From the NCBI RefSeq assembly GCF_002556545.1, contig NZ_CP022685.1:1550001-1614000 (forward strand): a stretch of DNA of 64,000 nucleotides. Direction: 5' to 3'. Each line of letters begins with the position of its first letter. Position 1 is the stretch's first letter. The DNA is from Streptomyces formicae (GTDB lineage: Bacteria > Actinomycetota > Actinomycetes > Streptomycetales > Streptomycetaceae). The notes below the pieces were generated by a model. It was given only the letters and a program-made list of their open reading frames with translations. It had not been told where the DNA came from and ran no database searches. The position numbers were made by a program, and so were the translations under genes. Shown here one piece after another: positions 32,071-37,248 of the stretch.

Positions 32071-33363
32071 GTGCTGGAGAACGCAAACGACTTCGGGCAG
32101 GAACTGCGCGTGAGGCGCCTGGCTGCCGGGCTCTCCCTCGGACAGCTCGGCCAGCGGGTGCACTACAGCAAGAGTCAGCTCAGCAAGGTGGAGCGCGGCA
32201 TCAAACGGCCGACCACCGAACTGGCCCGGCTCTGCGACGCGCAGCTGGACGCCGGGGGCGGCCTCGCCGAGCTCGTGCCCACTCAGCGCTTGCCTTCACC
32301 GCTCTCCGGACCCGGTCACGACGATGAGGTGTGGTTGATGCATCTGAGCAAGGACGGCTCCAGCTCGTTCCAGCCCGTGGCACGTCGCAGCGTCATCGCC
32401 GCCGGAGCCTCGGTTCTGGTCATGCGGGTGAGCGACGGGCTCTCCCAGCCGGCATGCGCGGAAGGAGCATCGACGGCACTGGACGCGGCGCGCCTGCTCT
32501 TCGACCAATTCCGCCGCCTCGGGCAGGCATCCGGTCCAGGGAGCGTGCTCCCTCCGCTCATCGCGCAGACGCACAGCCTGGAGCAGCTCGCCGTTGGCGC
32601 CGACGTGCGTACGCGACGTGAGCTTCTCCTGCTGGCCTCGCGCTACGCCGAGTACGTGGGCTGGATGGCTCAGGAATCCGGCGACGACACGGCGGCCCTG
32701 TGGTGGACCGAGCGCGCGGTGCAGCTCGCGGAAGCCGGGGCGGACAAAGGGCTCGCGGCGTACGCCTACGTCCGGCATTCGCTGATCAGCCTGTACCGAG
32801 GCGATGTCTCCCACGCCGTCCAACTGGCTGCGCACGCGCTCAAGAGCAAGGCGTCGCCCCGCATCCTTGGGCTGGCGGCCCAGCACCTCGCGCAGAGCGC
32901 GGCTGTGGACGGGGACTACGGCACCTGCATGCGCAGTCTCGACCGGGCACGCGAGCTGCTGGCCCGGGACGCGGCAGAACCTGACCGGCCGGTGCTCGGT
33001 GCTTCCCACGTGCCGGACGTGGTCGCGATGTTCCGGGGCTGGTGCATGTACGACCTCGGCCGCCCCCGACAGGCGGCGGCGCTGCTCGACGTCGAGACGG
33101 AGAGGATTCCCGAGCACGCCTTCCGGACCCGGGCACGCTACGGCGTTCGACGGGCGCTGGCCCACGCGGCCGCAGGCGACATCGACCAGGCCTGTGCGGT
33201 GACGACGGAGATCCTTCCCTCGGTACGTCTGACCCACTCCGCGACGGTCGCGGCCGACCTCCGTCGGCTGTCCCACACGCTTCGGCGTCACGCCCGTAAC
33301 GCCGCGGTTCGCACGCTCACTCCGGACCTCACCGCCGCGGCGATCCGCACCACTACGTCTTAG
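32071..33363 (+). CDS. XRE-family regulator with TPR-like C-terminal domain
   Basis: This 430-residue protein (GTG 32071, GGAGG at 32061) begins with an XRE helix-turn-helix (FGQELRVRRLAAGLSLGQLG, then SKSQLSKVERGIKRPT). The rest is an all-alpha TPR-like region (LLLLASRYAEYVGWMAQESGD, LAAYAYVRHSLISLYRGD, LAHAAAGDIDQACAV). Such Streptomyces proteins are signal-responsive DNA-binding regulators. It ends 28 bp before the TIR gene on the same strand, so it is likely the first gene of the cassette, diverging from priA. It may control the operon or act as a sensor. Confidence 0.82.
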   Translation: MLENANDFGQELRVRRLAAGLSLGQLGQRVHYSKSQLSKVERGIKRPTTELARLCDAQLDAGGGLAELVPTQRLPSPLSGPGHDDEVWLMHLSKDGSSSFQPVARRSVIAAGASVLVMRVSDGLSQPACAEGASTALDAARLLFDQFRRLGQASGPGSVLPPLIAQTHSLEQLAVGADVRTRRELLLLASRYAEYVGWMAQESGDDTAALWWTERAVQLAEAGADKGLAAYAYVRHSLISLYRGDVSHAVQLAAHALKSKASPRILGLAAQHLAQSAAVDGDYGTCMRSLDRARELLARDAAEPDRPVLGASHVPDVVAMFRGWCMYDLGRPRQAAALLDVETERIPEHAFRTRARYGVRRALAHAAAGDIDQACAVTTEILPSVRLTHSATVAADLRRLSHTLRRHARNAAVRTLTPDLTAAAIRTTTS

Positions 33364-33391
33364 AACCACTACGTATCAGGGAGGACCAGCC

Positions 33392-34144
33392 GTGCACGAA
33401 GTCTTCATCAACTACCGCACGCAGGGCGGCAAGGAAGTCGGATACATGTGTGACGCCGTGCTGTCGGCCCGATTCGGTGCCGACAGCGTGTTCCTCGCGA
33501 AGAAGTCCCTCGACCCCGGTCGCAGGTACGCAGAGGACATCATCCAAGCCGTACGCCGCTGTCACGTCCTGCTCGCGTTGATCGACGAACACTGGCTCGA
33601 CGCCCCTGATGTGCGCCGCCCCGGCAGAAGGGCCCTGGACAATCCCCAGGACTGGGTCCGAAGGGAGATCGAGGCGGCCCTGGGCTCCGGCGCGCTGATC
33701 GTCCCGCTCTTCATCGGCAGGCGGGTGGAACAGCTCGATCCGAACCGCCTCCCCACATCATTGTCGGAGCTGGCGGAGCACCAGTACGCACGCGTGGAGT
33801 TGCACAGCAAGGACGAAGACCTGGCACGGCTCGGCGACCGTCTGGTGCGTCAGGTCCCCGAACTCGCGAAGCTGGACAGCCAGGGCCGACCGGATGCGCC
33901 GACGGAGTCCGCGCCGGAAACCAGCCTGCGCACGGACCACCAGAGCGGAGGGATCGGCCAGGTCGGCGGCTCTGTAGGGAGCTTCGTCAACGAGGCCCAC
34001 GGTCCGTTGCACACGGGGAGCGGCGACCAGTACCACGGCCCTCGCATCACTGGGGACGGCACCAACTACATCTCCGGAGACAACAGCGGTGAGATACGTC
34101 AGCGCTTCGGGTCCCGCCGACCGCGGAGGGACGACGAGCAGTGA
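33392..34144 (+). CDS. TIR-domain protein with C-terminal amyloid-like motif
   Basis: This 250-residue protein (GTG 33392; GGGAGGA upstream) has a TIR domain at about residues 1-135: box 1 VFINYRT, the BB-loop region FLAKKSLDPGRRYAEDI, and QDWVRREIEAALGSGALIVP. Glu92 of that last segment matches the catalytic Glu of SARM1 (DWVHKEIVTAL), so NAD+ hydrolysis is plausible. The C-terminal half is Gly/Ser/Thr-rich. Residues 196-214 (GSFVNEAHGPLHTGSGDQY) match the N-terminus of the next protein at 10 of 19 positions. A Gly-Asn-rich stretch, TGDGTNYISGDNSG, follows. Its stop overlaps the next start by 4 bases (GTGA). It is the likely effector of the cassette. Confidence 0.85.
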   Translation: MHEVFINYRTQGGKEVGYMCDAVLSARFGADSVFLAKKSLDPGRRYAEDIIQAVRRCHVLLALIDEHWLDAPDVRRPGRRALDNPQDWVRREIEAALGSGALIVPLFIGRRVEQLDPNRLPTSLSELAEHQYARVELHSKDEDLARLGDRLVRQVPELAKLDSQGRPDAPTESAPETSLRTDHQSGGIGQVGGSVGSFVNEAHGPLHTGSGDQYHGPRITGDGTNYISGDNSGEIRQRFGSRRPRRDDEQ

Positions 34145-36090
34145 ACGAGTTCCCGGGCTCGATCATCAACGAAGCCCGCAGCGCCGTGCACAGCGGAGAG
34201 GGCGCCCAGTACAACTTCTATGTCCAAGCCGCCGCCTCTCGACTGCGCGAGCAGGCCAGCAGGCGCCCGCTCGTGATCGCACGGGCCGACCGTGAACACC
34301 TCTACCGGCGATTCGTACCGCCGCCCCGCCTGCAGCAGGCCCGGCAGTTGCTCCACGACTCGTGCGCGGTGCTGCTCGACGGAATCCCGGGCAGTGGCCG
34401 TCGTACCGCCGCCTTGATGCTGCTCCACGAACTCCCCGATGCCTCCGGAAGTTTCCACGAACTCCCCGACACCTCTGACGACACGACGGCCTCGCCGCTC
34501 GACGTGCACGACATCCATCACGGCGATCGGCTCTTGCTCGACCTTTCCGAGGTGGACGAGTCGCGGTATCTGGGGATCCAGGAAGAGTTCTCCGACTTCC
34601 GCAGCCACCTCGCGAGGAAGAGCGCTCACCTGGCGATGGTCCTTCCGCACCACCTCAGTTACCTCCTGCGGGGCGAGCTTCGCCCTCTCACCGTGGGCAT
34701 GGGCCGCCCGTCGCCGAAGAGACTGTTCATACGTCACCTGCGGTGCGAGAACATCTCGCCGAGGGAAGACGAACTGAACGGTCCGGACCTCACGGCTCAC
34801 CTGGCCCGAGCGCCGATGCGCGACGTAGCGGCCCTGGCCGATCGCATCAGGCGCTGCCGGGACACTGCGGGAGCGGACCAGGGGTTCCCTCACTGGCTCG
34901 CCGAATCCCTGGCAGGCGCCGCGGACCACACCGCGCGCGTGGCGGCGGACATCTCCGCGGAGCAGAACGGCCGCAGGAAGGCGCTGCTGCTCTCGCTCGC
35001 GGTGTTCCACGGCACCCTCCCCAGCGCGATCCTCCAGGCGACGAACGGCCTTCTGACTGTTCTCGGCCATCCCCCGGACACCACTCCCCGGCTGGAGCAC
35101 AGCGACCTCCACGCGGAGCTCACCGCGATCGGTGCGGAGACTCTGCCGGACGGCCGCGTCCAGTTCCGCCTCCAGGGATACGACCAAGCCGTCCGGAACC
35201 ACTTCTGGACGTTCCTGCCGGACATCCGATGCCAACTGCGGGACTGGTTCAGTACCTGCCTGACGCAGACGGGGGCCGATCAGTCCGAGAGGAGCGCCGC
35301 CGTCGCCCGGTACGCCGAGCAGGGCCTACGGACCCATCGGCCCGAGGATCTGACATGGCTGGCCAAGCAGTGGACGCTGTCCACCGCCCGGGCCGACCTC
35401 CTGCCGGATGCCTCACAGGTACTCGCTCTCGGCCTCGCGGACGACCAGCACGGCCGGTTCTTCCGGCAGCAGATCTACGACTGGTCCAAAGACACGACGA
35501 CGAGTCCCGGGCTACGACGCGTCCTCATCCTGGTGTGTTCGGAAGCCATGGCACGCTCCCACCCGGATCAAGCCCTCGTCCGCCTGCACCACCTGGCACG
35601 ACGGAGCTCAGGAACGCTCGGAGCGGATGCCCGCCAAGCGGTGGTCGGCCTTGCCAGGACCGACAACCGGCTGTACCGCAGAATGCTGGACCGCTTGGCC
35701 ACGGGAATCGCCCAGGGGCATTGGGCCACTGATGTCGACTTGTTCCTGACCCTCGCCGACCCGGTACGCCTGATCCGCTCCCCCAGTGTGAGGGACAGCC
35801 TCGCCCTCGGATGGACCGGCGTACTGAACCGTCCGGCCGACTACTGGACCACGCGAACCGTGGGTTGGCTCAACGCCTGCAGTGACGGCCGCTATCGCGA
35901 TCCGGCTCTGGACGTACTCGTCGCCGCCTCAGCGACCGACGTCCGCGCCTCGGGCCGCCTGTACCGCGTCGCTCTCGACTGGTCGCGCGCCGACACGGGC
36001 GACACGTCCAGGCGCGAGGAGACCGTCTCCGACCTGCTGCGGAAAATCAATGCCGCTCAGGGCATCACGCCCTACAGCCACGCCGTCTGA
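34141..36090 (+). CDS. STAND-like P-loop protein with N-terminal amyloid-like motif
   Basis: This 649-residue protein (GTG 34141, site GGAGGG) begins with the motif GSIINEARSAVHSGEGAQY (residues 6-24), matched to the TIR protein. A P-loop domain follows: Walker A-like GIPGSGRRT (81-89), where the usual Lys is Arg, and Walker B-like LLLDL (131-135). The remaining ~400 residues are predicted helical-repeat (LHHLARRSSGTLGADARQAV and similar) and could be the sensor. A small duplication HELPD..HELPD lies at about 96-110. It is translationally coupled to the TIR gene. The call as an NLR/STAND-like sensor is inference; no close named family was recognised. Confidence 0.65.
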   Translation: MNEFPGSIINEARSAVHSGEGAQYNFYVQAAASRLREQASRRPLVIARADREHLYRRFVPPPRLQQARQLLHDSCAVLLDGIPGSGRRTAALMLLHELPDASGSFHELPDTSDDTTASPLDVHDIHHGDRLLLDLSEVDESRYLGIQEEFSDFRSHLARKSAHLAMVLPHHLSYLLRGELRPLTVGMGRPSPKRLFIRHLRCENISPREDELNGPDLTAHLARAPMRDVAALADRIRRCRDTAGADQGFPHWLAESLAGAADHTARVAADISAEQNGRRKALLLSLAVFHGTLPSAILQATNGLLTVLGHPPDTTPRLEHSDLHAELTAIGAETLPDGRVQFRLQGYDQAVRNHFWTFLPDIRCQLRDWFSTCLTQTGADQSERSAAVARYAEQGLRTHRPEDLTWLAKQWTLSTARADLLPDASQVLALGLADDQHGRFFRQQIYDWSKDTTTSPGLRRVLILVCSEAMARSHPDQALVRLHHLARRSSGTLGADARQAVVGLARTDNRLYRRMLDRLATGIAQGHWATDVDLFLTLADPVRLIRSPSVRDSLALGWTGVLNRPADYWTTRTVGWLNACSDGRYRDPALDVLVAASATDVRASGRLYRVALDWSRADTGDTSRREETVSDLLRKINAAQGITPYSHAV

Positions 36091-36110
36091 CACCGAAACC
36101 GGGGGCCACC

Positions 36111-37211
36111 ATGAGTTCTGGTCAGAAGACGATGACCGCCTTCGTCACCGTCATTCTCGGACTGATCCTCGTCATACTCGGCCTGAGCGCCAGCTGGCCG
36201 CCTTGGGCCTGGCCTGCCACGGCTGCGTTGCTCCTCGTCATCGCGCTGGTGACGCACCGGGTCCTGGACCAGGGATCGGACTCTCCCCCTCCGTACTTCC
36301 CTCCGGATCCCGACGAGCCGCTGCCGAGTCCGCAGCGTCAGGAGCAACGCGTCGCGTACGTCGCGCTGCCGAGCTCCGTCGCGGACTATGACTTCTCCTT
36401 CTCCGCCACTGTGCGATGGGCGCTGCTGGAGGCCCCCGATGACGCCCCGTACATCAATCCCGCGGGACTGGCGATCGACGCCGTGCTGCAGCGCGCGAGG
36501 GCGGTGACAGCTCAACAGCCGCCTCACCAGGCAGCGTTCGTGCAACATCAACTCGACGGGGCCCTGGGCACGATGCGGCCCGACGCGACAGGCCGCATCC
36601 TGGCGATGGCCCTGGACGTCTCTCTCCATCTCTCGGACATCGACCGCGACCGCCTCGCCAAGCTCTCCAACGTCCGCAAGGACGAGGACGTTTGGGAGCA
36701 CGAGCGCAACTACGAGCGGAGCAAGCGCGCCTACCTGGGCGATGACGTCCTCAAGGACCCCGGGAGCGCCGTGGTGTGGTGGCTCGCCAGGAACGACGAG
36801 AAGGTGGAAGGGGCCGTCGATCGCATCGGACTCCTCGCCCGGCTGTCAGCCGCGGCCAACAACGAACGAGTCGCCCCCGCCTTCGAGCACTTGGCGGCTC
36901 CGACGATGCCCGCGTTCGCGGCCTCCGCCTCGGAGGGAGGCCCTCGTTCGACACCGACGTGGGAACCGCTGGGTTTCTCGGCCCTGCCCGATGACGAAGC
37001 GGCCGACGAAGCACGGGAATCGCCACTCGACTCACTGCTGGCGTGGTTCGGCTTCTCCGCGGACGACGAGGACCTGGAGCTGTTCGCCGAGAGGGTCATC
37101 GATCTGGCGAGGGCTCATGGCAAGGCGGATGTCATCGATGAGGTGAAGCGCCGCTTCCAGCCCACCCGGCCCGACAGCGATGACGCGTCGCCGCCGGAGT
37201 ACGCCCCGTGA
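36111..37211 (+). CDS. Two-TM membrane protein with cytoplasmic domain, last gene of TIR cassette
   Basis: This 366-residue protein has two adjacent TM helices at about residues 9-27 and 32-49 (TVILGLILVILGL, ATAALLLVIALV). A Pro-rich linker (PPPYFPPDPDEPLPSP) then leads to a soluble, mostly helical region with a very acidic tail (FSADDEDLELFAERVIDLA). No known domain was recognised. ATG 36111 starts 20 bp after the STAND-like gene, so it is in the same operon. It could be a second effector, a membrane anchor or an immunity factor. A 14-bp hairpin terminator closes the cassette. Confidence 0.7.
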   Translation: MSSGQKTMTAFVTVILGLILVILGLSASWPPWAWPATAALLLVIALVTHRVLDQGSDSPPPYFPPDPDEPLPSPQRQEQRVAYVALPSSVADYDFSFSATVRWALLEAPDDAPYINPAGLAIDAVLQRARAVTAQQPPHQAAFVQHQLDGALGTMRPDATGRILAMALDVSLHLSDIDRDRLAKLSNVRKDEDVWEHERNYERSKRAYLGDDVLKDPGSAVVWWLARNDEKVEGAVDRIGLLARLSAAANNERVAPAFEHLAAPTMPAFAASASEGGPRSTPTWEPLGFSALPDDEAADEARESPLDSLLAWFGFSADDEDLELFAERVIDLARAHGKADVIDEVKRRFQPTRPDSDDASPPEYAP

Positions 37212-37217
37212 CGCGGC

Positions 37218-37248
37218 GGGGCCCGGCTCTCAGAGAGAGCCGGGCCCC
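37218..37248. terminator. Bidirectional hairpin between cassette and metK
   Basis: GGGGCCCGGCTCTC / GAGAGCCGGGCCCC, a perfect 14-bp stem with an AGA loop. It is followed by AAAA on the + strand and lies between convergent genes. Confidence 0.85.

Follow-up and report, generated by a model that had tools for sequence, protein, structure and literature searches.

The DNA analysed here, hereafter the window, is a 64,000-nucleotide stretch of Streptomyces formicae (NZ_CP022685.1, positions 1,550,001 to 1,614,000; feature coordinates are window positions) in which four co-directional open reading frames (ORFs) form an operon between the core genes priA and metK. Their products are an XRE-type regulator with TPR-like repeats (gene 1), a TIR protein (gene 2), a STAND protein with helical repeats (gene 3) and a membrane protein with a predicted SPFH-like domain (gene 4), and the C-terminal tail of the TIR protein and the N-terminus of the STAND protein carry a common short motif (Table 1).

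A conserved four-gene module between priA and metK

The coordinates and spacings of the operon were reproduced as originally predicted, with 28 bp between genes 1 and 2, a 4-base overlap between genes 2 and 3, and 20 bp between genes 3 and 4. Both flanking genes lie on the minus strand, such that priA and gene 1 are divergent and gene 4 and metK convergent. Terminators had been claimed to bracket the operon, which holds on the metK side, where a strong hairpin is probably the shared terminator of gene 4 and metK; it is absent from a consensus terminator scan because it lacks a T-run. On the priA side, the terminator scan found none.

Table 1. Features of the four-gene operon and its metK-side flank
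Feature	Position	Strand	Evidence
Gene 1: XRE helix-turn-helix and TPR-like regulator, 430 amino acids (aa), NsdA family	32071-33363	+	HTH_31 1.5e-12; NF053720 177.3 bits, cut-off 75
Gene 2: TIR protein, 250 aa, probable NAD+-consuming effector	33392-34144	+	TIR_2 7.4e-8, 33.4 bits, cut-off 28; SARM1 TIR 8.6e-4
Codon of putative catalytic Glu92	33665-33667	+	Glu in 61/61 aligned rows; aligns with Glu of SARM1 WVHKEI
TIR C-terminal shared motif, residues 196-215, GSFVNEAHGPLHTGSGDQYH	33977-34036	+	BLASTP against STAND N-terminus, E 4e-4
Gene 3: STAND protein, nSTAND3-like NTPase and helical repeats, 649 aa	34141-36090	+	nSTAND3 (PF20720) 1.7e-4, 21.7 bits, below cut-off 27.2
STAND N-terminal shared motif, residues 6-25, GSIINEARSAVHSGEGAQYN	34156-34215	+	BLASTP; region predicted disordered (AlphaFold2, AF2)
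Degenerate Walker A, residues 81-89, GIPGSGRRT, Arg at Lys position	34381-34407	+	Arg 52, Leu 4, Thr 1, Lys 0 of 57 rows
Gene 4: two transmembrane helices, predicted SPFH-like domain and long helix, 366 aa	36111-37211	+	Structure prediction, fold search
Predicted SPFH-like core, residues 76-175	36336-36635	+	Structure model, fold search
Hairpin between gene 4 and metK	37218-37248	.	-37.1 kcal/mol, z -4.9

Matches to the STAND protein at E<=1e-30 were found in 62 of 295 Streptomyces genomes, and at E<=1e-3 in 80, the extra 18 being weak matches to other STANDs or pieces. From the strong matches we fetched 60 loci, omitting short-contig fragments in G050 and G120 and a partial second copy in G165, and 57 of these have the complete set of four genes, with order and strand unchanged. 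The exceptions, L039, L088 and L089, have no gene 1 within reach, and L089 also lacks gene 4. The TIR and STAND genes overlap by 4 bases in 56/60 loci, with starts picked by a simple ORF caller. When gene 4 only was used to search named genomes, and the best 80 of 201 relatives were kept, 78 loci showed the XRE-TIR-STAND-gene 4 order; in the other two (L196, L220) the contig end is too near to show gene 1. The titles of these loci include Streptomyces, Kitasatospora, Streptacidiphilus, Streptosporangium, Planomonospora, Sphaerisporangium and Microtetraspora. As 57/60 STAND-fetched and 78/80 gene 4-fetched loci keep the order, it is beyond chance, and the four-gene operon is a conserved, accessory module of patchy distribution. 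It is neither in nearly every Streptomyces nor confined to this locus, with half of the named loci (40/80) lying elsewhere, and housekeeping or core status was rejected on the patchiness of its distribution.

The original prediction also held that the operon is an insertion between priA and metK. We compared 38 genomes with metK out of 117, namely most of G001-G040 that were not known module carriers there and six with near-identical metK. In 35 of the 38 the priA-metK gap is 61-960 bp, including the two nearest metK relatives, G081 (99%) and G093 (98%), with 105 and 114 bp, against about 5.4 kb in the window, which bears the insertion out. The remaining three are L119, with 7,284 bp of other genes, L092, with a gene 4 remnant beside metK at a contig start, and L107, with no priA in reach. 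The gaps of L094 and L116 (960 and 750 bp) each appear to hold a small gene, S1-domain-like by eye.

The module adjoins metK in 14/60 STAND-fetched loci. Among the 80 named loci, 33 place it between metK and priA, 6 beside metK and 1 beside priA only, and 21 unique downstream flanks were counted; from these positions and varied flanks we conclude that the module moves and that the priA-metK site is a favoured home. Genes are split or frameshifted in L054, L061, L063, L090 and L091, with the XRE or STAND gene split in all of these except L063, as is expected of costly accessory immune genes.

The TIR tail and the STAND N-terminus share a pair-specific motif

BLASTP of the window TIR protein against its STAND neighbour gave a single significant stretch, TIR residues 196-244 against STAND residues 6-43 (E 4e-4), and the TIR tail is conserved above the preceding linker. 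Across 58 loci, from which L063, L090 and L091 were excluded as broken, the pattern [TSN]G.G..[YFHQN] is present in 51 TIR tails and 50 STAND N-termini and in 0/58 for each of two control regions. The stricter G.G.Q[YF]N occurs in the first 60 residues of 35/57 rows of the STAND alignment (A1) and nowhere else in those proteins, and in the wider set in 9/58 STAND N-termini and 19/58 TIR tails. Chance occurrences of such a motif are rare, since G.G.Q[YFHV]N has one match in 127,996 six-frame window residues, which is the STAND protein itself. An RHIM/BASS3-like segment, VQ[AGS], was present in 26/60 TIR tails and in 2/60 STAND N-termini, too few of the latter for it to be used as the shared tag.

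The motif is also specific to the pair. Among 20 representatives under 70% TIR identity, tails scored 56.8 against their cognate STAND and 43.7 against non-cognate ones (0/20,000 permutations, z 6.2), whereas the control region STAND 61-105 made no difference (22.3 vs 23.2); sharing exceeded the 99% shuffle level in 16 of the 20. In an extended set of 35 pairs that included diverged and effector-swapped loci, the cognate score was 65.2 vs 39.0 (0/100,000 permutations, z 14.3).

Effector and STAND partners change together

Twenty distant loci were fetched, of which 13 entered the pair test; L177, L179-L183 and L188 were left out, the simple ORF caller giving no credible pair. At the distant loci the effector and STAND partners change together. 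In L171-L173 the effector is a TIR, and the partners share longer motifs of their own. In L169 a putative cyclase-like effector bears a TIR-type tail beside an Arg/Lys-variant STAND and gene 4, and here the motif persists where the TIR has been replaced. The cyclase-like effector of L170 has a different motif, present in both partners (score 113), with a CRP-type regulator upstream (cNMP_binding 54.2 bits) and two gene 4 relatives downstream, and those of L176 and L178 have a third. The label cyclase-like comes from motifs read by eye and the CRP-type neighbour; these effectors have no Pfam, NCBIfam or PDB match.

A parallel module occupies the same site in L119 (genome G036). The 7.3-kb insert between priA and metK encodes a regulator of the CRP type (62.1 bits) and a cyclase-like protein, together with an nSTAND3-like one that scores 23.7 bits, short of the cut-off, and another that is SPFH-like by eye only, with no Pfam match. 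It also encodes membrane proteins, the last of which belongs to the Pycsar effector family PycTM (46.4 bits, cut-off 27.2). Its two tag candidates score above 1,999/2,000 shuffles. PycTM ties this architecture to a known defence family, and the priA-metK site is likely a defence hotspot in Streptomyces.

Predicted functions of the four proteins

A TIR domain with an intact catalytic Glu92, as originally predicted, was recovered for gene 2: its TIR_2 match is above cut-off, the Glu is invariant, and it aligns with that of SARM1 (Table 1). Sequence comparison thus places both a TIR fold and the catalytic Glu in this protein, which is probably an NAD+-consuming effector. The TIR enzyme with a catalytic Glu is common to Thoeris and other TIR defence systems; the operon differs in having no ThsA-like gene.

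Gene 3 had been described as a P-loop/helical-repeat protein. The helical repeats stand, and the protein is a STAND, but its P-loop is degenerate. PF20720 is carried by many of its homologues, and its AF2 model (pLDDT 86.8, pTM 0.83) gave six Foldseek matches at E<=1e-3, with SAMD9, EfAvs5 (E 1.5e-4), Avs4 and AVAST5 among them. No Sir2 match was found in gene 3, and only about 45 residues precede the NTPase. By comparison, it resembles nSTAND3/Avs5 proteins, with a degenerate P-loop domain, a winged-helix-like part and helical repeats, its own effector domain missing. Avs5 (AVAST type 5; Sir2-nSTAND3-repeats) is described as depleting NAD+ upon phage infection and as requiring its Walker-A Lys for immunity (PMC12931631). 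The two systems would have in common an nSTAND3-type NTPase with C-terminal helical repeats and an NAD+-degrading effector (Sir2 in Avs5, probably TIR here). They differ in that Sir2 is fused N-terminally in Avs5 while the TIR here comes from a separate gene and would act in trans, in the Walker-A residue, which is Arg in most rows of the gene 3 family and Lys in none, and in the extra SPFH and NsdA-like genes of the window operon. Many database entries for gene 3 homologues read 'ABC transporter substrate-binding protein', and a single one reads 'glycogen/starch/alpha-glucan phosphorylase'; these annotation errors hide the family. The same genome has a distant second STAND (L131, G000:C1:2793000-2799000) of 780 aa, with a P-loop containing GRT, after a 181-aa ORF.

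For gene 4, the fold search decided the SPFH assignment, as the sequence routes failed: no family reached a convincing score, Pfam returned no more than scattered weak matches for 53 members, and a PDB sequence search found no relative at E<=1. The order of parts in the predicted model, with N-terminal membrane segments, then an SPFH-like core and a following long helix, resembles that of stomatin, prohibitin, HflK/C and flotillin, from which gene 4 differs in reaching no Pfam family by sequence. Gene 4 is very probably a membrane-anchored protein with an SPFH-like fold. The earlier description as a two-transmembrane protein was therefore correct as to the helices and incomplete as to the rest.

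Gene 1 was confirmed as an XRE/TPR regulator, combining HTH_31 with a match to the NsdA-family, TPR-like NF053720. It is not NsdA itself, for which the NCBIfam score is 20.4 bits against a cut-off of 830. For NsdAsr, negative regulation of rimocidin biosynthesis is described (PMC12243394). Gene 1 would, on balance, repress or tune the operon.

Comparison with BASS and fungal sigma systems

The layout of the module is itself of a known type, that of the bacterial amyloid signalling sequence (BASS) NLR-effector pairs, which were reportedly described by Dyrka et al. in 2020; what is new here is a tag specific to each pair, an effector that can be exchanged and a partner predicted to be of the SPFH kind. 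BASS motifs are described on adjacent or overlapping genes, with effectors that include TIR proteins, in filamentous actinobacteria (PMC7889193), a description that the module fits. As in BASS, the same motif lies at the effector C-terminus and the STAND N-terminus of adjacent genes. The usual effector in that account is a Bell domain rather than a TIR, and the clusters it describes are two-gene ones without an SPFH or NsdA-like partner, both of which are present here.

The fungal sigma-motif system (HET-eN/SesA/SesB of Nectria) likewise has a common motif on a STAND N-terminus and effector C-termini. Its motif A is given as GxGxQFNxx, and its sigma extensions as closer within a cluster than between orthologues (PMC3321046). 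In the part of the family where the module core reads GxGxQ[YF]N, it matches motif A, and tags co-evolve within clusters in both systems. The differences lie in the effectors (lipase, SesA), in the NTPases (NACHT or NB-ARC) and in the motif count, as sigma has three-fold A/B repeats over about 40 residues and the STAND N-termini of this family mostly have one A-like unit. Sigma is described as without sequence homology to BASS (PMC12261475) and as resembling some BASS in composition (PMC8086366). The likeness to one sigma peptide was equalled in 2/3,000 shuffles for the STAND profile and 189/3,000 for the TIR-tail profile. Homology to the fungal motif is unproven and kept as a lead only, because the sigma peptide, when locally aligned with the tails and the N-termini directly, scored below the shuffle maximum (35.5 vs 37.35; 27.65 vs 30.5) and a BASS3-like archaeal peptide also scores with the STAND profile (17/3,000 shuffles).

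A proposed immune signalling role and its rivals

We infer defence, NADase activity and amyloid formation from these comparisons. The module is, with somewhat better than even prospects, a mobile accessory immune signalosome in which the NAD+-consuming effector acts in trans. The STAND protein would sense infection or membrane damage and oligomerise; its N-terminal motifs would then be brought into line, and would recruit the TIR tails or serve as their template. That the shared motif is a coupling device between the two proteins we hold with high confidence; whether the coupling is amyloid or prion-like is evenly balanced. The clustered TIR domains would quite probably consume NAD+, and the cell would likely stop growing or die before phage release. 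Gene 4 might scaffold the STAND at the membrane or be a guarded sensor, a tentative assignment that we favour less than the other steps. More speculative still, and doubtful as a whole, is a bacterial 'inflammasome' of interchangeable cassettes, with an SPFH ring as guarded sensor, a degenerate-P-loop STAND as relay and a sigma-type prion-like tag in trans, in which the TIR is swappable for a nucleotide cyclase along with the regulator (NsdA-like with TIR, CRP-like with cyclase) and the tag is kept or changed in both partners.

Several results weigh against the signalosome and its parts. Genes 2-4 of the window matched no PADLOC model, Thoeris and Pycsar included, and these systems were rejected as their identity; this agrees with the earlier view that the architecture does not look like a named system. 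An NTP-driven switch is uncertain because the Walker-A Lys that Avs5 needs is Arg. The Avs-like Foldseek matches to gene 3 have low TM-scores (0.19-0.24), and a second aligner (VIA list) placed general AAA+ domains first, with no Avs chain among the 50 matches listed. The gene 4 model has a pTM of 0.45. As to the motif, four of the 20 representatives (L059, L077, L084, L087) have none above the 99% shuffle level, and in the extended set the cognate partner ranks first in only 12/35 pairs and in the top three in 19/35. Because motifs within its family resemble one another, the window's own pair takes 8th place among the 35; the paralogous STAND of L131 shares no motif with its preceding ORF (rank 16 of 35).

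The closest competitor, which we regard as possible and somewhat below an even chance, retains the module and makes the motif a soluble docking peptide, by beta-strand addition or as an adaptor resembling effector-associated domains (EADs), such that a STAND ring simply gathers TIRs with no amyloid. The motif is indeed short (about 20 residues), single in most STAND N-termini and disordered in AF2, and homotypic non-amyloid EAD adaptors are described in such systems (PMC7159879, PMC8195603); on the other hand, G/N/Q-rich, fast-diversifying, pair-specific tails in adjacent genes are described as typical of the amyloid class (PMC3321046, PMC9815663). The likeness might also be a functionless by-product of a tandem duplication in the recent past, or of gene conversion between the overlapping genes, as the spacing of the two motifs, about 120 bp with the TIR-STAND boundary between them, would suggest. 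This is most improbable: shared identical residues use the same codon in 97/179 cases against 92 expected from codon usage (16/20 representatives, the four without a clear motif omitted), so that it is the protein sequence at which the likeness is maintained, and a recent duplication of the motif is rejected, and both the pair-specificity over 35 pairs and the tail retained under effector replacement in L169 speak against it as well.

It is also conceivable, if unlikely, that the product of the TIR is a signalling nucleotide (a cyclic ADP-ribose) read by another protein, or that the module governs regulated cell death during hyphal development and not phage defence. The NsdA-family gene 1 would be the developmental tie, and the cNMP-binding CRP-type regulators beside the cyclase-like versions indicate that some relatives probably signal by nucleotides. 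Against this, the operon has, gene 4 aside, no conserved gene for a receiver among the 80 named loci, and the patchiness (62/295) and decayed copies (L054, L061, L090, L091) suit defence better than development. The defence role put forward in the original prediction, resting on an NLR-like sensor paired with a TIR whose Glu is intact, is still an inferred one, now backed by the parallel PycTM-bearing module of L119 at the same site. That interpretation was sustained in its insertion, co-occurrence and NLR-TIR coupling; it was wrong about paired terminators and had missed the shared motif, the predicted SPFH domain of gene 4 and the degenerate, Avs5-like nature of the STAND.

If the signalosome is real, it is a new conserved four-gene immune system in which sensor and effector are coupled via an exchangeable short tag, and an SPFH scaffold, known in eukaryotic membrane and immune biology, would enter an NLR-type pathway; the question of bacterial relatives of the fungal sigma prion motif would also be raised. 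The dozens of natural pairs with jointly changed tags form a ready set for prion-like signalling specificity. Full-text literature searches found no description of the four-gene module. At another place in this genome, an ORF of 60 aa encodes a free-standing look-alike of the TIR tail (G000:C1:5158135-5158314, minus strand; L130 2136-2315; ...STDGPTHLGSGQQ...GDNHGSIRQSFGR...). It matches the window TIR tail (E 5.4e-4) and tails of TIR proteins from other genomes, as well as a frame of 75 aa in G048, and might be a decoy, an antidote or a relic of the tag.

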